DNA from: a bacterium
Lineage (GTDB): Bacteria; Patescibacteriota; Patescibacteriia; Patescibacteriales; GWC2-42-12
NCBI GenBank assembly: GCA_030650415.1
Contig: JAUSEG010000016.1
Span: 1 to 40,445 of the forward strand
Reading direction: 5' to 3'
Length of the DNA stretch: 40,445 nt
The position numbers were made by a program, and so were the translations under genes. How positions within the stretch are numbered: position 1 is the first letter of the stretch; each line of letters starts with the position of its first letter. Shown piece after piece: positions 1,661 through 29,362 of this stretch. The notes under the pieces were generated by a model, which did no database searches, was not told where the DNA came from, and saw only the letters and a program-made list of their open reading frames with translations.

Positions 1661-1844
1661 TGGTGCCCTCGAGAAGAATCGAACTTCTGTCTAGGGCTTA
1701 GGAGTCCCTTGTTCCCCGCCTGCCATCGCCTGTGCCCCCGAGAAGAGTCGAACTTCTATCTAGGGCTTAGGAGTCCCTTGTTCTATCCGTTAAACTACAG
1801 GGGCTCAGGCATTGGCGGGCAGGTATCCACTGAACTACGAGGGC
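1661..1844 (-). pseudogene. tRNA-Arg(CCU) gene interrupted in its D loop by a second tRNA-Arg
   Basis: The 5' part (1844-1824: acceptor GCCCUCG, D stem GUUC, D loop AGUGGAUA) and the 3' part (1714-1661: GAAC, anticodon loop CUCCUAA, T arm, CGAGGGC, A, encoded CCA) join into a perfect 75-nt tRNA-Arg(CCU): the 7-bp acceptor and 4-bp D stem match exactly. Between them sit 109 bp (1823-1715) holding a complete second tRNA-Arg(CCU) at 1804-1733, flanked by CCTGCC/GGCAGG-type inverted arms. Unless the insert is removed from the RNA, the outer gene cannot fold. I call it disrupted; an RNA-processing scenario remains open. Confidence 0.75.
1733..1804 (-). tRNA. tRNA-Arg(CCU), inner copy
   Basis: 72-nt cloverleaf. 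The acceptor is GCCCCUG/CGGGGGC (one U-G pair), the D stem GUUU/GAAC, the anticodon loop CUCCUAA (anticodon CCU), and the T arm AGAAG-UUCGACU-CUUCU, with discriminator A. CCA is not encoded, unlike the outer copy. Position 31-39 of the anticodon stem is an A-G mismatch in both copies. It lies wholly inside the D loop of the interrupted tRNA-Arg. This is the copy expected to be functional. Confidence 0.88.
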
Positions 1845-21121: not shown

Positions 21122-21235
21122 ATAATTAATGTTGATAAGTTAAATTACATAATTAACACCAATAATAATGAAACGGATTTGTTAAGCTCGTTTCCGTTCA
21201 TTCATATTAGTGTTTAGATGGATTGGAGGTGAAAC

Positions 21236-21646
21236 ATGATAAAAAAAATAATGAGAAAAACAGCGGTTCTAGCTTTTTCCTTATTGATTTTAACCTCGGT
21301 TTTTGCTTTTTCTCTACCAGCCTTAGCCGCAACTGAATTTTTTGGAAATAACGATATAAATGGAACGGGGTTTGCTAACAGAGCCGGCTTGCCGGGATCG
21401 GGTATGGATTTGCGCGCTACGATAGAAAGGGTTATAAAATTAGTAATGGGCTTCTTAGGCATAATCGCGGTGGTGGTTATTCTAATCGGCGGTTTTAAAT
21501 GGATGACTGCCGGAGGCAATGAAGACAAGGTAGGCGAGGCCAAAAAATTATTAATTTCCGGTTTGATCGGTTTAATAATCGTTGTCTTAGCTTACGCTAT
21601 CGCCGTCTTCGTTATTACACAGCTGCTTGAAGTTACCAAAGTTTAA
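21236..21646 (+). CDS. VirB2/TrbC-like pilin 1
   Basis: 136 aa. Signal peptide (RKTAVLAFSLLILTSVFAFS, cleavage after ALA), a short variable segment, then two hydrophobic helices joined by a charged turn: VVVILIGGFKWMTAGGNEDK, then LISGLIGLIIVVLAYAIAVF. This is the T4SS pilin layout of VirB2/TrbC: two-helix subunits that assemble into a conjugative-type pilus in the membrane. A strong GGAGGTGA ribosome site (21225-21232) is unusual for this window. Its core is almost identical in DNA to pilin 2. First of nine tandem paralogues; no VirB4 or other secretion gene is in the window. Confidence 0.85.
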   Translation: MIKKIMRKTAVLAFSLLILTSVFAFSLPALAATEFFGNNDINGTGFANRAGLPGSGMDLRATIERVIKLVMGFLGIIAVVVILIGGFKWMTAGGNEDKVGEAKKLLISGLIGLIIVVLAYAIAVFVITQLLEVTKV

Positions 21647-21676
21647 TATTATTAATACCGGTATTAAGAAAAGCTT

Positions 21677-21709
21677 GTCCAGCCCCAGTTTAAGAAACTG
21701 GGGCTGGAC
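21677..21709 (+). other. perfect 15-bp RNA hairpin between pilins 1 and 2
   Basis: GTCCAGCCCCAGTTT/AAACTGGGGCTGGAC with a 3-nt loop and no U tract. It is more likely an mRNA stabiliser or processing site than a terminator. Confidence 0.6.
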
Positions 21710-21749
21710 GTTGCTCTGGACGAGAGCTTGGGTTCGCGGATAGAGCAGC
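21710..21749 (+). promoter_or_regulatory. conserved intercistronic hairpin, copy 1
   Basis: Outer stem GTTGCTCT/AGAGCAGC and inner stem CGAG/TTCG. Matches 22332-22375, with base changes that keep pairing. Confidence 0.55.
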
Positions 21750-21827
21750 GAATAATTAAATTTAATCAGCGCTGAGATAATAAATTAAAGTTTATTAGCT
21801 TAGCGTTAATTAGATCGGAGGTGAAAT

Positions 21828-22253
21828 ATGATAAAAAAAATAATGAGAAAAACAGTGGTTTTAGCCTTATCCCTATTAATTATAATCCCGGTTTTTGCTG
21901 TTTCTTTACCGGTCTTAGCTGCTATCGATACCAATAGTTTTTTTAGGGGCGGTAATGATACTGGTACTGCGAATGAGTTTGCTAATAAATCTGGCTTACC
22001 GGGGCAAGGCCTTGAATTTCGCGATTTAATAGAAAGTATTATCGCCTGGGTAATGGGCTTCTTAGGCATAATCGCGGTGGTGGTTATTCTAATCGGCGGT
22101 TTTAAATGGATGACTGCCGGAGGCAATGAAGATAAAGTTGGCGAGGCCAAAAAATTATTAATTGCCGGTTTGATCGGCTTAATAATCGTGGTTTTAGCTT
22201 ACGCTATCGCCGTCTTTGTCCTTGCTCAGTTGATTGATATTACCAATAATTAA
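21828..22253 (+). CDS. VirB2/TrbC-like pilin 2
   Basis: 141 aa. Same layout as pilin 1: signal peptide with cleavage near VLA, a variable segment about 35 residues long, then the two core helices (GFKWMTAGGNEDKVGEAKKL turn). About 80 bp of core DNA are identical to pilin 1, showing recent duplication or gene conversion, while the exposed segment (DTNSFFRGGNDTGTANEF) differs. Own GGAGGTGA ribosome site at 21817-21824. Followed by a 29-bp palindromic insertion and the second copy of the intercistronic hairpin. Confidence 0.85.
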   Translation: MIKKIMRKTVVLALSLLIIIPVFAVSLPVLAAIDTNSFFRGGNDTGTANEFANKSGLPGQGLEFRDLIESIIAWVMGFLGIIAVVVILIGGFKWMTAGGNEDKVGEAKKLLIAGLIGLIIVVLAYAIAVFVLAQLIDITNN

Positions 22254-22271
22254 TATTCTTAATACCGGTAT

Positions 22272-22300
22272 CCTGCCTGTCCGGTAGGCAGGTAGGCAGG
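22272..22300. repeat. 29-bp palindromic insertion
   Basis: Begins CCTGCCTGTCCGGTAGGCAG. The flanks TAATACCGGTAT and TAAGAAAAGC are directly joined after pilin 1 (21653-21674), so this is a clean insertion of a relative of the palindrome at 2458. Confidence 0.8.
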
Positions 22301-22331
22301 TAAGAAAAGCGCGCTCTCAATTCTTTGGGGG

Positions 22332-22375
22332 CCGCTGCTCTGGACGAGAGCTCTGGCTCGCGGATAGAGCAGCGG
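22332..22375 (+). promoter_or_regulatory. conserved intercistronic hairpin, copy 2
   Basis: Outer stem CCGCTGCTCT/AGAGCAGCGG, inner stem CGAG/CTCG. Pairing-preserving differences from copy 1. Confidence 0.55.
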
Positions 22376-22381
22376 AAAGAG

Positions 22382-22500
22382 AATTTTCAATTTTCAATTT
22401 TTAAACAATGATTTAATGTTTCAATTTTTAATGGCTAATTTTTTGCTAATTGAAAAATTAGGTCATTAAAAATTGTTTAGAAATTAGAAATTGAAAATTT
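22382..22500. repeat. palindromic MITE-like repeat, family C
   Basis: Very AT-rich, with long imperfect terminal arms (AATTTTCAATTTTCAATTTT against AAATTAGAAATTGAAAATT). Ends 5 bp before the pilin 3 ATG, so it probably forms that gene's leader. Confidence 0.6.
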
Positions 22501-22504
22501 ATCT

Positions 22505-22927
22505 ATGTCTTTAACTAAAATATATAAATTTATATTACCCTGTTTAATGGTGGTTTTGGCGTTTTTATTTTCAGCTCAATTGGTTTTTGCCCAGACCGGA
22601 GTCGATAAAGCTAAGGAAGGCTTGAAAACTACCGGTACGGGCGGCTTTGGCGTAAGCGGCGAAGCTAAACTATATCCGGCCGGCGGCTTGGCGCAAATCA
22701 TCGGTAATGTAATCGGCGCGATTTTAGCCTTCGTGGGCGTGATATTTTTCTGTTTGATTCTCTGGGCCGGTTTCGGCTGGATGACAGCCAGAGGCAAGGA
22801 AGAAGAAATTAGTAAAGCTAAGGATACGATTTTCGGCGCGGTTTTAGGTTTAATGGTAGTTTTAGGCGCTTATGCCGTGACCCGGCTGATCGCGGTGATT
22901 TTTAGCAACGCGCTGACCGGAACGTAA
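22505..22927 (+). CDS. VirB2/TrbC-like pilin 3
   Basis: 140 aa. Signal peptide (FILPCLMVVLAFLFSAQLVF, cleavage after VFA), a 45-residue variable segment rich in glycine, then helix 1 (GVIFFCLILWAGFGWMTARG), charged turn KEEEISKAKDT and helix 2 (VLGLMVVLGAYAVTRLIAVI). Same WMTA-G-E-KAK signature as the other pilins but clearly divergent from pilins 1 and 2, so an older paralogue. A MITE-like repeat lies immediately upstream, where a ribosome site would be expected; none is evident. Confidence 0.85.
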   Translation: MSLTKIYKFILPCLMVVLAFLFSAQLVFAQTGVDKAKEGLKTTGTGGFGVSGEAKLYPAGGLAQIIGNVIGAILAFVGVIFFCLILWAGFGWMTARGKEEEISKAKDTIFGAVLGLMVVLGAYAVTRLIAVIFSNALTGT

Positions 22928-22950
22928 TTTTTTGAAATCTTGTTTATTTA

Positions 22951-23028
22951 CCCCGTTAGATTTTTTAAATTAATTTATTAAATTCAGCTAAGTTTGTATG
23001 CGTGCATATAAAAGAAAATCTAACGGGG
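22951..23028 (+). promoter_or_regulatory. 14-bp inverted repeat at the pilin 4 start
   Basis: CCCCGTTAGATTTT (22951-22964) and AAAATCTAACGGGG (23015-23028). The right arm abuts an in-frame GTG (23028) that is the better pilin 4 start, so the stem could mask initiation. Confidence 0.5.
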
Positions 23029-23417
23029 TGAAGAAGCTCTATATATTTTTTATACCAATAATATTCTTGCTTTTTGTAAACTTTAGTTTAACCGCGGAGG
23101 CGTCCGGCACAAAATTTAATGAAGGATTAAAAGTAACCGGCCAAGGCGCCGGCTATCCGGTTGAGGCGGCGAATAATCCAGGGAATTTTTTAGCCAAAAT
23201 GTTTGGCAGTGTCTTAACGCCGATGTTCATGGGCGTGATTGCTATGTTAATATTGGGTTATGCCGGCTATACCTGGATGACGGCGCGAGGCGAAGAACAG
23301 AAGATCGAAAAAGCCAAGGACATGATAAAAAATACCATTTTTGCTTTAGTCGTAGCTTTTTCCGCTTATGCGATTTTAAAATTAATTATACCTCTATGGG
23401 AATTCGTTACAAAATAA
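22998..23417 (+). CDS. VirB2/TrbC-like pilin 4
   Basis: 139 aa as drawn from ATG 22998; the GTG at 23028 would give KKLYIFFIPIIFLLF directly after the start, more like the MKK starts of its paralogues. Hydrophobic signal peptide, variable segment, then MGVIAMLILGYAGYTWMTAR, turn GEEQKIEKAKDM and helix FALVVAFSAYAILKLIIPL. It ends inside the start of pilin 5 (22-bp overlap), so the two are coupled. The most divergent second helix of the nine. Confidence 0.8.
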   Translation: MRAYKRKSNGVKKLYIFFIPIIFLLFVNFSLTAEASGTKFNEGLKVTGQGAGYPVEAANNPGNFLAKMFGSVLTPMFMGVIAMLILGYAGYTWMTARGEEQKIEKAKDMIKNTIFALVVAFSAYAILKLIIPLWEFVTK

Positions 23418-23884
23418 TCAGAGTTAGATCAATTTGCATCTTGTTTTTTCTGTCCATTTTTTTGGCATTTTTTATGGTTGCTCCGGCATTGGCTCAAGAC
23501 CGGCCAAATGACGGGGAGTCGTATGAAGATTTTATTAATCGAGTTGGTGGATCTACTGGTTTAGGTAAGGCTTTTGACAGTAAGGAAGGCACGCCTTTAA
23601 ACGCGGTGGCGGGAAAAGGAGGCGCGGGCTTTAATGATACCGCGACTTTTGAAGGTATAGTCGGCTTGGTTATAACTACGGTCATGGGTCTCTTAGGCGT
23701 GATTTTCTTGGTTCTGGCGGTTTATGCCGGCTTTAAATGGATGACGGCCGCGGGCAATGAAGAAGCGGTGGAAAAAGCTAAGAGTACTTTAACCAGCGCG
23801 ATCATTGGTTTAATTGTGGTTTTAGCCGCTTATACTATCAGCCGGTTTGTTATTAGCATACTGGGCAATACAGTTTTTAAATAG
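23396..23884 (+). CDS. VirB2/TrbC-like pilin 5
   Basis: 162 aa, the longest of the set because of a 60-residue segment between the signal peptide (cleavage after ALA) and helix 1, rich in Gly, Asp and Asn (EDFINRVGGSTGLGKAFDSK). Core: GVIFLVLAVYAGFKWMTAAG, turn NEEAVEKAKST, helix IIGLIVVLAAYTISRFVISI. The start overlaps the 3' end of pilin 4 by 22 bp. The long segment would be the surface-exposed part if the usual VirB2 topology applies. Confidence 0.85.
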   Translation: MGIRYKIIRVRSICILFFLSIFLAFFMVAPALAQDRPNDGESYEDFINRVGGSTGLGKAFDSKEGTPLNAVAGKGGAGFNDTATFEGIVGLVITTVMGLLGVIFLVLAVYAGFKWMTAAGNEEAVEKAKSTLTSAIIGLIVVLAAYTISRFVISILGNTVFK

Positions 23885-23934
23885 AGCTAGCTTAGAAATT
23901 AAAATTTGTGTAGGATTAAAAATATAGATTCCGG

Positions 23935-23955
23935 TCTGCCTACCGGACAGGCAGA
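23935..23955. repeat. CTGCC-type palindrome
   Basis: CTGCCTACCGGACAGGCAG, relative of the palindromes at 2458 and 22272, here inside a degenerate MITE B end (GATTCC / GGAATGAC) between pilins 5 and 6. Confidence 0.6.
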
Positions 23956-23984
23956 TTTAAGGGTCGGAATGACGAAAAATTGCA

Positions 23985-24362
23985 ATGAAAAAAATTTATA
24001 AAAAAATATTAATTTCTGTCGGTTCGGCCGTTACGGCGGCTTTTCCGTTATTGGTTTTGGCCGCCAATCCGGCTCTGGAAAAATTGGACAATGTTGCGAC
24101 GGTTGGAGGGCCTTACAAAACGGTAATTGGCGAAATAGCCCTGACGGAAATTATAGGCACTGTAGTTGGAGCCGCGCTGGGTTTAATAGGAGTAATTTTT
24201 TTACTATTAATGATTTACGCCGGCTATAATTGGATGACGGCTCAAGGCGAAGAAGAAAAAGTGACTAAGGCTAAGGACACGATTATTCGAGCCGTTATTG
24301 GCATAATTATCGTGGTTGGAGCTTACGCGATCTGGGCGTTTGTTTTTAGTAAATTATTTTAA
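23985..24362 (+). CDS. VirB2/TrbC-like pilin 6
   Basis: 125 aa, the shortest pilin. Signal peptide (VGSAVTAAFPLLVLA), short variable segment, then GLIGVIFLLLMIYAGYNWMT, turn AQGEEEKVTKAKDT and helix AVIGIIIVVGAYAIWAFVF. With pilins 7, 8 and 9 it forms a subgroup sharing the turn GEEEKVT. No extra C-terminal tail. Pilin 7 begins 9 bp after its stop. Confidence 0.85.
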   Translation: MKKIYKKILISVGSAVTAAFPLLVLAANPALEKLDNVATVGGPYKTVIGEIALTEIIGTVVGAALGLIGVIFLLLMIYAGYNWMTAQGEEEKVTKAKDTIIRAVIGIIIVVGAYAIWAFVFSKLF

Positions 24363-24371
24363 TTTTTTTAT

Positions 24372-24839
24372 ATGCATATAAGATTTATTAGAACAGGCGC
24401 CCTGGCAACGATTATTTTTTTAATTATGATAGCGGGGGTTAATTTGACCAGCGCTAGCTTTTTAAAGCCCAGCGTGAAAAATAATATTGATTTGGACGCG
24501 GGAATAGTGGGCGAAGTTGCCGGCTATGAAGTCGGCGGAGGCGATAGCGCGCTGATCTTAGTCCAGACCGTGATTAATGCTTTTTTAAGCATAATCGGCG
24601 TTTTACTCTTAATTTATATAATCTATGCCGGCTATAATTGGCTAACCGCCCAGGGCGAAGAAGAAAAAGTTACCAGAGCCAAAGAAACTATCCAGCGGGC
24701 GATTATCGGCGTGATTATTATCGTGGCCGCTTACGCGATAAGTATTTTTGTTATGACGAAAATAGAAAGCGGAACATTAAAGGGTGGCGATGCAACACCA
24801 AAAGGGGGAACGGCAGACCCATATGGATTGACAGACTAA
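24372..24839 (+). CDS. VirB2/TrbC-like pilin 7
   Basis: 155 aa. Signal peptide, variable segment with VVGEVAGYEVGGGDS-like composition, core IIGVLLLIYIIYAGYNWLTA, turn QGEEEKVTRAKET and helix AIIGVIIIVAAYAISIFVM. Unlike the others it has a 27-residue hydrophilic C-terminal tail (GGDATPKGGTADPYGLTD). The tail might project from the pilus or aid localisation, which is inference. A MITE of family D follows before pilin 8. Confidence 0.85.
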   Translation: MHIRFIRTGALATIIFLIMIAGVNLTSASFLKPSVKNNIDLDAGIVGEVAGYEVGGGDSALILVQTVINAFLSIIGVLLLIYIIYAGYNWLTAQGEEEKVTRAKETIQRAIIGVIIIVAAYAISIFVMTKIESGTLKGGDATPKGGTADPYGLTD

Positions 24840-24852
24840 TAATAAATGTAAT

Positions 24853-24970
24853 TTGTTATTGCGAACGACTGAAAGAAGTGAAGTAATCTCATAAATATGG
24901 TTTTGGAAAAAAATTTGTTGTTCGTGAGATTGCTTTGTCTCCGCCGGCTGGCGAATCCTCGCAATGACAA
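24853..24970. mobile_element. MITE-like element, family D, copy 1
   Basis: Ends TTGTTATTGCGA and TCGCAATGACAA with subterminal TAATCTC/GAGATTGC. Related full copy at 34131-34271. It lies between pilins 7 and 8. Confidence 0.65.
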
Positions 24971-24982
24971 GGATGTGAATGT

Positions 24983-25390
24983 ATGAAAAAAACTTTTAAG
25001 TACATTTTATCATCGGTTTTTTTAATAGCTTTTTTAATTTTACCGATTTTAACTTTAGCCGGCAGTTCGGCCAGCGATAATTTAAATAAGGTTGGATCGG
25101 GTTTGACTAGCGACGCGCCTTACGCCAAGGCCGATGAGTATAAGCTTTCGGATATTATCGGCGTGGTGATTCAGACTTTTTTAGGGCTCTTAGGCGTTTT
25201 ATTCTTAGTCTATATGCTTTATGCCGGTTATAACTGGATGATCGCGCAAGGCGATGAGGAAAAAGTTACTAAGGCTAAAGATACCATTCAGCGGGCGGTT
25301 ATCGGGTTGATTATTGTTATCGCCGCTTATGCCATGAGCTTTTGGGTGTTTGATAAATTGCTAACGAGAACAGGCATCGTAAGCCAATAA
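24983..25390 (+). CDS. VirB2/TrbC-like pilin 8
   Basis: 135 aa. Signal peptide (SSVFLIAFLILPILTLA), segment with SDNLNKVGSGLTSDAP, core LLGVLFLVYMLYAGYNWMIA, turn QGDEEKVTKAKDT and helix AVIGLIIVIAAYAMSFWVF. One substitution in the signature (WMIA for WMTA). Pilin 9 starts 7 bp after its stop, so the two are co-translated. Confidence 0.85.
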   Translation: MKKTFKYILSSVFLIAFLILPILTLAGSSASDNLNKVGSGLTSDAPYAKADEYKLSDIIGVVIQTFLGLLGVLFLVYMLYAGYNWMIAQGDEEKVTKAKDTIQRAVIGLIIVIAAYAMSFWVFDKLLTRTGIVSQ

Positions 25391-25397
25391 TTTAAAT

Positions 25398-25865
25398 ATG
25401 CTAAAAAAGAATATAAAATTTCCCCCTGACTCCGCCAGCTGGCGGATACGGAGGACAAGTATTTTTAACGGATTAATAATAGCAGTGATTTTTTTAAATT
25501 TTTTATTTTTTTCTTCGCCCAGCCTGGCCGGAACAAAAGCGGAAATAGACAAACAGATGCAAGCGGTCAGTAATAGGCCGTGGGGCGGCGGCGTGCCAAC
25601 CCCAGAAAATAGTTTGGCCGGGATTATTCAGGTTGCGATCAGCGCTTTTCTCGGCTTGCTTGGCATAATTTTTATAGTTTTAATAATTTACGCCGGTTTT
25701 AACTGGATGACGGCTCGGGGCGAAGAAGAAAAAGTGACTTTAGCGAAAGAGACTTTAGTCAGAGCGGTCATCGGTTTAATTATAATTATTGGCGCTTACT
25801 CAATTACCTATTTTGTGTTTAGTAATTTGCCGGGTGGCGGAGGAAACCCTCTTAAAGCTGGTTGA
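25398..25865 (+). CDS. VirB2/TrbC-like pilin 9
   Basis: 155 aa. The N-terminal 25 residues before the signal helix include PDSASWRIRRTS, encoded by a palindromic repeat (TCCGCCAGCTGGCGGA, about 25430-25445) that reads through in frame; the paralogues lack it. Then signal helix (LIIAVIFLNFLFFSSPSLAG), variable segment, core LLGIIFIVLIIYAGFNWMTA, turn RGEEEKVTLAKET and helix AVIGLIIIIGAYSITYFVF, with a glycine-rich tail. Last of the array, followed by a bidirectional terminator. Confidence 0.8.
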   Translation: MLKKNIKFPPDSASWRIRRTSIFNGLIIAVIFLNFLFFSSPSLAGTKAEIDKQMQAVSNRPWGGGVPTPENSLAGIIQVAISAFLGLLGIIFIVLIIYAGFNWMTARGEEEKVTLAKETLVRAVIGLIIIIGAYSITYFVFSNLPGGGGNPLKAG

Positions 25866-28591: not shown

Positions 28592-28840
28592 ATGATCTAT
28601 TTTACGTATGTTTTAAAGAGTCAAAAAAATAAAGATATTTATATTGGTAGCTGTGAAAATGTCTTAATTAGATTGCAACGCCATAATACCGGCAAAGTTA
28701 AATCAACAAAGGGCTATAAGCCATGGGATTTGCTGGAATATAAGGAGTTTAGTATTAGAGGGGAGGCGGTAAAGCATGAAAGATTTTTAAAAACTCATCA
28801 GCAAAAAGAAATAATAAAAAATAAATATAATAAGGCCTGA
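28592..28840 (+). CDS. GIY-YIG nuclease family protein
   Basis: 82 aa, the whole single-domain form. GIY-YIG motif as FTYVLKSQKNKDIYIGSCEN, catalytic-type Arg and His in LIRLQRHNTGKVKSTKGYKP, and the conserved Glu region RGEAVKHERFLKTHQQKEII. Such stand-alone proteins (YhbQ/UvrC-N-like) are probable DNA nucleases. The last 7 bp, including the stop TGA, are the acceptor stem of a broken tRNA-Cys, a placement reminiscent of homing endonucleases that use tRNA genes as sites. Confidence 0.85.
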   Translation: MIYFTYVLKSQKNKDIYIGSCENVLIRLQRHNTGKVKSTKGYKPWDLLEYKEFSIRGEAVKHERFLKTHQQKEIIKNKYNKA

Positions 28841-28866
28841 TAGCCAAGTGGTAAGGCGAGAGTCTG

Positions 28867-28896
28867 TCTCGCTTTGCGAGATCTCGCGTAGCGAGA
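28867..28896. repeat. twin-hairpin element, tRNA left junction
   Basis: 30 bp made of TCTCGCTTTGCGAGA plus TCTCGCGTAGCGAGA, inserted between G34 and C35 of the tRNA-Cys anticodon loop. Confidence 0.75.
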
Positions 28897-28920
28897 CAAA
28901 ATAAAAATATATATAATTAT

Positions 28921-28992
28921 GGCCTGGTAGCCAAGCGGTAAGGCAGTTCTCTGCAAAAGAACTACGCGGGAGTTCGATTCTCCCCCAGGCCT
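28921..28992 (+). tRNA. tRNA-Cys(GCA), inner intact copy
   Basis: Complete cloverleaf: acceptor GGCCUGG/CCAGGCC, D stem GCC/GGC, anticodon stem GUUCU/AGAAC with loop CUGCAAA (GCA), T arm GGGAG-UUCGAUU-CUCCC, discriminator U typical of cysteine. CCA not encoded. It lies within the disrupted tRNA-Cys. Confidence 0.93.
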
Positions 28993-29019
28993 CAATATAC
29001 TAAAACAAGCATAAGTCTG

Positions 29020-29049
29020 TCTGGCTTCGCCAGATCTCGCAAAGCGAGA
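29020..29049. repeat. twin-hairpin element, tRNA right junction
   Basis: 30 bp made of TCTGGCTTCGCCAGA plus TCTCGCAAAGCGAGA, flanked by AGTCTG and CAAAACTCT, the same flanks as at the left junction. Confidence 0.75.
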
Positions 29050-29126
29050 CAAAACTCTTATACATGGGTTCAATTCCCATCCTGGCCTCTAAGATAGAAT
29101 ATGGCGCAGTAAGTTGCAGTATTTAT

Positions 29127-29295
29127 GTCTAGGATACTGTGGACTTTACTTTTTTGAGTAAATTTTATAATAGTTGCATCAGTAATAACTTAAGTCTACG
29201 ATGCTGTGGACTTAAGTTTTATAAGATGTGTGGATAACTAGTGGATTGTGTGGATAAAGTCAGGACTTAAGTCTAGAGATATGTGGACTTAAGTT
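29127..29295. other. DnaA-box cluster with three hairpin repeats (origin-like or titration site)
   Basis: Two perfect DnaA boxes TGTGGATAA at 29229-29237 and 29249-29257, 20 bp apart in the same orientation. Around them are three repeats with arms ACTTAAGTC/GACTTAAGT and 12-nt loops TAGGATACTGTG, TACGATGCTGTG and TAGAGATATGTG. The first repeat keeps only short arms. Each repeat ends in TGTGGACTT (29138, 29205, 29282), a box-like variant. AT-rich DNA follows. Function is inferred from these sites only. Confidence 0.6.
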
Positions 29296-29362
29296 TTATT
29301 TTACCAGGTTATTAAAATAAATTTGTTTAATATTAGTAGTTTATATAAATTAGTTAGGATTA

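Follow-up and report, generated by a model that had tools for sequence, protein, structure and literature searches.

The window, the whole 40,445-nucleotide stretch of DNA analysed here, is contig 45 of a 1.29-Mb MAG that is 98.7% complete; all genomes used throughout are MAGs. It contains a locus at which an intact tRNA-Cys gene lies inside a broken one, behind a small endonuclease gene, with the following features:

28592..28840, + strand: GIY-YIG endonuclease gene, 82 aa (Pfam PF01541, E = 2.5e-12)
28834..28866, + strand: displaced 5' half of the outer tRNA-Cys, last base G34 (GAGAGTCTG), identified from sequence
28867..28896, no strand: twin hairpin E1, 30 bp, identified from sequence and pair covariation
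28897..28920, + strand: CAAAA and the A+T-rich leader of the inner tRNA, identified from sequence
28921..28993, + strand: inner intact tRNA-Cys(GCA), found by ARAGORN and Rfam
28994..29019, + strand: spacer with 3' end AAGTCTG (GTCTG at 29015-29019), colinear with the junction in genome G007
29020..29049, no strand: twin hairpin E2, 30 bp, identified from sequence and pair covariation
29050..29088, + strand: displaced 3' half of the outer tRNA-Cys, first base C35 (CAAAACTCTT), identified from sequence

Joined together, the outer halves make up a tRNA-Cys (anticodon GCA) that is split between G34 and C35, as the first-pass annotation of the window had claimed and as the adjacent bases in relatives confirm. 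The 183-bp insert (28867-29049) consists, in order, of a twin hairpin (E), the leader, the intact tRNA-Cys, the spacer, and a second twin hairpin. The composite-like unit proposed in that annotation is supported. The GTCTG and CAAAA flanks that it described as identical are present at both junctions but are partly the anticodon loop itself; the combined pattern GTCTG-E-CAAAA has two matches in the window and none in 100 shuffles. The annotation missed the upstream GIY-YIG gene, the stop codon of which falls 7 nt into the outer 5' half, and the link between such genes and the anticodon across isoacceptors. The inner gene is the sole intact tRNA-Cys found in the 98.7% complete genome. Its sequence clearly differs from that of the outer halves, as is also the case at loci L094 and L097, and in the window the two differ beside the anticodon (CTCTGCAAAAG in the inner versus GTCTGCAAAAC in the outer tRNA).

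Among close relatives, the site is occupied in the window genome (G000), G007, and G012 and empty in G002 and G003, which belong to the same genus; such presence and absence at one defined site is the pattern of a homing element. G002 and G003 carry the uninterrupted tRNA-Cys that the first-pass annotation had proposed to look for, at the syntenic place and with no base gained or lost. Positions 28866 and 29050 align with blastn to adjacent bases (1540|1539 in G002 and 1541|1540 in G003), and the window therefore contains exactly 183 bp of extra sequence; neither alignment shows a duplication at the junction, and the GIY-YIG gene at 28592-28840 is likewise absent from the syntenic place in both genomes. 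From the inner tRNA to the last base of the outer 3' half, the window and G007 (locus L099) are colinear. An inner-type tRNA-Cys, around 95% identical to that of the window, is found unbroken at the same place in G011, a member of the same family, which argues that relatives have exchanged the tRNA gene that occupies this locus. The outer acceptor stem has two mismatches between its 5' and 3' halves. These had been taken as a sign of decay and are real, but the outer 5' half is identical at 32 of 33 positions to the G012 tRNA-Cys located after a GIY-YIG remnant, whereas the outer 3' half is identical at 39 of 39 positions to the uninterrupted tRNA-Cys of G002. Each side of the mismatches thus has its counterpart in a different relative, and a chimera with halves of two tRNA-Cys lineages appears to explain the outer tRNA better than decay by itself.

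The locus could also be read as an RNA intron, the outer halves and hairpins forming an extended anticodon arm and the tRNA being restored by splicing or by processing that frees both tRNAs. In the predicted fold of 28834-29088 (z = -9.3), an E1:E2 helix does extend the outer anticodon stem and the inner cloverleaf sits at its tip. Since E is self-complementary, however, E1:E2 pairing is automatic, and Rfam at gathering threshold recovered three tRNAs only from the whole window, with no intron family or intron RNA core. Besides the two acceptor mismatches in the window, the outer halves in relatives have further breaks in the D and T loops or are missing the acceptor end (L091, L094, L146, L148, L154, L164, and L185), and we consider an intron very improbable.

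The twin hairpin is a conserved structure. Across 15 junction copies of E, 97.8% of the cells are paired, and both-sided changes are seen at 6 of 12 pairs, a level reached in 0 of 500 shuffles; two adjacent short hairpins are kept by compensatory change, as defines double-hairpin elements. The double-hairpin or repetitive hairpin-forming elements of mitochondrial DNA are dispersed twin hairpins that have been reported in Allomyces with no flanking duplications (PMC2800124). E resembles them in its twin hairpins and its dispersal in the genome but differs in that, besides its dispersed copies, it bounds both ends of an enzyme and tRNA unit at a fixed tRNA position. A search of the genome yielded eight further copies outside tRNA-Cys, in other contexts and some with short repeats on both sides. 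The twin hairpin as such is therefore not confined to tRNAs, and tRNA specificity belongs only to the form with GTCTG and CAAAA flanks. We rejected a composite transposon built from E, as E is widespread outside tRNAs and fuller copies of the unit contain a nuclease gene; no transposase was found in the unit.

An exact scan for GTCTG-twin hairpin-CAAAA over 84,980 species genomes returned 10 places. Each is a broken tRNA-Cys gene in a candidate-phyla (CPR) bacterium, and at each a small GIY-YIG gene immediately precedes an intact tRNA-Cys. CPR bacteria are tiny and mostly uncultured; the relatives whose records bear names are Moranbacteria, Yanofskybacteria, Howlettbacteria, and other genomes of Parcubacteria type. 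The pattern forms the left junction in six (5' half, hairpins, GIY-YIG, intact tRNA-Cys) and the right junction in four (intact tRNA-Cys, hairpins, displaced 3' half). The best preserved case, L094, retains both junctions and runs from the 5' half through hairpins, GIY-YIG, the intact tRNA-Cys, and a second set of hairpins to the 3' half, which gives the full order 5' half-E-CAAAA-GIY-YIG-intact tRNA-spacer-GTCTG-E-CAAAA-3' half. The window copy corresponds to this design minus the internal GIY-YIG gene, which in L092-L095, L097, and L098 occupies the position of the window leader (28897..28920), and the role of the enzyme within the window copy is consequently read from the relatives.

Known integrases do recombine within the anticodon loops of tRNAs, leaving a restored tRNA, and G007, with its intact tRNA and displaced 3' half, resembles the outcome. 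A remnant of a classical integrase island, with the anticodon loop as its attachment site, is nevertheless hard to credit: the units are a few hundred bp long, both displaced halves are present and have hairpin ends, and the protein that recurs is GIY-YIG rather than an integrase. No integrase gene was found within the unit, the 183-bp insert encoding the tRNA only and fuller copies GIY-YIG only.

The window GIY-YIG protein scores 47.4 bits against PF01541, above the cut-off of 22.6, and thus belongs to the family; the Y..Y-(I/V)G motif and the Arg and Glu columns are conserved in the tRNA-Cys-linked enzymes. Using it as the query against 381 genomes of the class, we found homologues in 73 genomes and read 91 loci. 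In 62 of the 91, a tRNA starts at most 120 bp downstream on the same strand; these tRNAs represent 14 amino acids, and the GIY-YIG stop codon often lies inside the downstream tRNA. In a less biased set, consisting of all small GIY-YIG genes of four genomes (n = 40), 18 lie directly upstream of a tRNA, the chance expectation being roughly 0.4% (about 45 tRNAs per Mb). About a third of the homologues, and 22 of the 40 genes in the unbiased set, have no tRNA directly downstream. A displaced half of the same tRNA, recognised by comparison with loci of other isoacceptors, stands beside 41 of the 62 units (a 5' half before the gene in 34 and a 3' half after it in 14). The breakpoints cluster in the anticodon: among 40 clear 5' halves, 17 end at positions 34-36, and among 21 3' halves, 6 have position 36 as their first base. 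Some breakpoints fall in the D loop or T arm. No other feature accompanies the broken tRNAs as consistently as GIY-YIG; the 12 genomes checked contain 3-17 matches each. In a GIY-YIG tree based on 85 alignment columns and with few strong forks, isoacceptor changes number 23, in comparison with 47.1 +/- 1.8 for shuffled labels (minimum 42 of 300), and host family changes number 58. The enzyme phylogeny thus follows the tRNA type and not the host, as would be the case for homing elements.

The ends of the units are isoacceptor-specific: tRNA-Cys units have TCTSGC twin hairpins, tRNA-Gln units have other twin hairpins of their own at both junctions, and tRNA-Ala units, inserted between positions 35 and 36, have the ends TCCCGAT and ATCGGGA. 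Four tRNA-Ala loci (L150, L154, L159, and L187) show the same arrangement as L094, with a displaced 5' half, GIY-YIG, an intact tRNA, and a displaced 3' half, and in all five an endonuclease gene comes with a replacement gene and the native part is displaced, as in the mobile-ORF (mORF) hybrids of fungal mitochondria. The tRNA-Ala right-end pattern gave one chance-like, single-mismatch match in a further draw of 380 genomes of the phylum, and the Ala subfamily therefore seems narrow. Stems between leader and trailer surround the intact tRNA in 11 of 61 element tRNAs (six Ala, three Gln, and two Ser) and in 3 of 46 controls; with such numbers, and none in the window, we rejected them as a general feature. 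In all six tRNA-Ala units (L150, L154, L159, L164, L187, and L211), the leader and trailer repeats vary by locus with the pairing kept. Extra hairpins are frequent in the D or T loops of displaced halves, as at L091, L094, L146, L148, L154, L185, L131, and L213, which suggests that these halves are dead. The tRNA-Ser loci L203, L205, L226, and L232 have GIY-YIG genes directly downstream of the tRNA, and in the first three a copy of the tRNA-Ser 3' sequence lies behind the enzyme gene, possibly a mirrored arrangement.

The first-pass annotation had counted a second nested isoacceptor in the window and judged the process recurrent. The recurrence is supported by relatives, by other tRNAs of the genome, and by other lineages of the radiation. 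The second case exists as well:

1732..1804, - strand: intact tRNA-Arg(CCT), nested in a D-loop-split tRNA-Arg(CCT) with outer parts at 1824-1845 and 1663-1714

It is, however, split in the D loop and has different inverted repeats at its junctions (CCTGCCCGCC.../...GGCAGGCGGG), and the segment (1663-1845) contains no GIY-YIG gene. The same CCTGCCCGCC and GGCAGGCGGG recur at L022 (G000:C6), where a tRNA-Arg(CCG) is nested in a D-loop-split tRNA-Arg, again with no GIY-YIG. At L024 (G000:C8), a tRNA-Gln(TTG) enclosed by a leader/trailer stem is nested in a T-arm-broken tRNA-Gln with terminal inverted repeats CCCCGTCAAATA and CTATTTGACGGGG. Overall, the tRNA-Arg(CCT), Arg(CCG), Gln(TTG), and Ala(GGC) genes of the window genome are nested or fragment-flanked and have no GIY-YIG gene, and tRNA-Pro(GGG) and tRNA-Leu(CAA) are further cases with one; at L131 (G000:C2:3650-3954), GIY-YIG lies between a hairpin-interrupted tRNA-Pro 5' half and an intact tRNA-Pro(GGG), which makes this a second unit in the window genome.

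A rival account is local duplication, in which tRNA genes duplicate in tandem, dispersed hairpins interrupt the spare copies, and the GIY-YIG genes are unrelated neighbours. The nested Arg, Gln, and Ala cases with no GIY-YIG and the eight dispersed copies of E speak for such a history, and the inner and outer 5' halves are identical in L154, L164, L172, L179, L182, and L198, loci for which local duplication is an alternative. As an account of the window locus, duplication is unlikely: every match to GTCTG-E-CAAAA adjoins a GIY-YIG gene, breakpoints fall in the anticodon in many isoacceptors, the GIY-YIG tree tracks the isoacceptor, and the window, L094, and L097 each have a foreign inner tRNA.

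We favour, with a probability of about three in four, the reading that the locus holds one copy of a small mobile element for which tRNA genes are the homing targets and which both destroys and replaces the resident tRNA. A full element would consist of hairpin or inverted-repeat ends, a single-domain GIY-YIG gene, and a complete tRNA of the same isoacceptor. The enzyme would cleave the resident gene within its anticodon (in tRNA-Cys, between G34 and C35), and the element would be installed at the cut when element DNA is used for repair; the resident tRNA would be destroyed and the tRNA of the element would assume its function. An essential single-copy gene could be invaded with no death of the host because the element's tRNA replaces the destroyed resident. 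Judging from the sequences compared, the simplest history of the window locus has two rounds. An earlier element would have left the GIY-YIG gene and its tRNA beside the native 3' half behind a twin hairpin, the outer 5' half being the 5' half of that element's tRNA. A later element would then have inserted into that tRNA, placing the inner tRNA-Cys between two twin hairpins, and its middle part, including GIY-YIG, may have been lost by recombination between the like hairpins. The main weakness of the homing model is immunity: where the inner tRNA matches the outer halves exactly, the target would persist in the intact gene, and these loci contradict a recoded, cut-resistant inner tRNA as a rule. 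The enzyme is a single domain of about 82 residues and lacks the DNA-binding domain of the well-studied GIY-YIG homing enzymes.

The closest parallel is found in fungal mitochondria, where mobile ORFs form gene hybrids in Allomyces atp6 and in Glomus atp6, atp9, cox2, and nad3, the atp9 case with a GIY-YIG enzyme (PMC3630166). These hybrids and the tRNA elements share an endonuclease gene in an essential gene, a supplied replacement, and a native part that is displaced and divergent (PMC3630166); the tRNA elements differ in their bacterial hosts, in targeting the tRNA anticodon in many isoacceptors, in supplying a complete gene and not a 3' end, and in their hairpin or short inverted-repeat ends. 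The rRNA genes of CPR bacteria contain GIY-YIG and LAGLIDADG insertions; those with GIY-YIG showed no match to introns of group I or group II and were judged to be outside spread by homing (PMC11270868). The tRNA elements similarly place homing-type endonuclease genes in structural RNA genes of the same bacteria, but they differ from the insertions of that rRNA-only study in their tRNA targets, their replacement tRNA, and the lack of an intron. The synthetic cleave-and-rescue and homing-rescue drives share the logic of breaking an essential gene and carrying a working copy; the likeness is an analogy only, as the tRNA elements are natural and bacterial and use no guide RNA. In the open-access papers searched, we found no prior description of GIY-YIG units at tRNA genes, and there is a fair chance that these elements deserve a class of their own. 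We lean slightly towards an undescribed class of selfish element, with an isoacceptor-specific GIY-YIG enzyme, a cut in the anticodon, and a replacement tRNA, that would act as a natural home-and-rescue drive and turn over essential tRNAs across Patescibacteria, sometimes with a foreign tRNA.

If correct, this would explain the many tiny GIY-YIG genes in the reduced genomes of the radiation as well as the broken tRNA copies beside intact ones. It would also be a route by which essential tRNA genes are replaced horizontally and a natural counterpart of engineered rescue drives, and it may offer a set of small enzymes that each target a single tRNA gene. Annotators should be alert to nested tRNAs, and tree-builders to the fact that tRNA genes in Patescibacteria can be foreign.

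Three further features of the window deserve mention. A 225-residue protein (455-1132, - strand) has its C-terminal end inside the 5' end of the tRNA-Ala(GGC) gene (389-464, - strand), beside which no displaced tRNA half was found in the window; with a weak HTH_SB match (E = 9.4e-5) that is below the cut-off, it is possibly another enzyme family using the same tRNA trick as GIY-YIG. At 21214-25804, eight repeats of about 155 nt with 62-74% identity extend across several ORFs and are probably tandem paralogues. Beside the tRNA-Cys locus, at 29114-29300, palindromes (TTAAGTCTAC...GTGGACTTAAG) and TTATCCACA-like boxes are conserved in relatives and possibly mark a replication origin.
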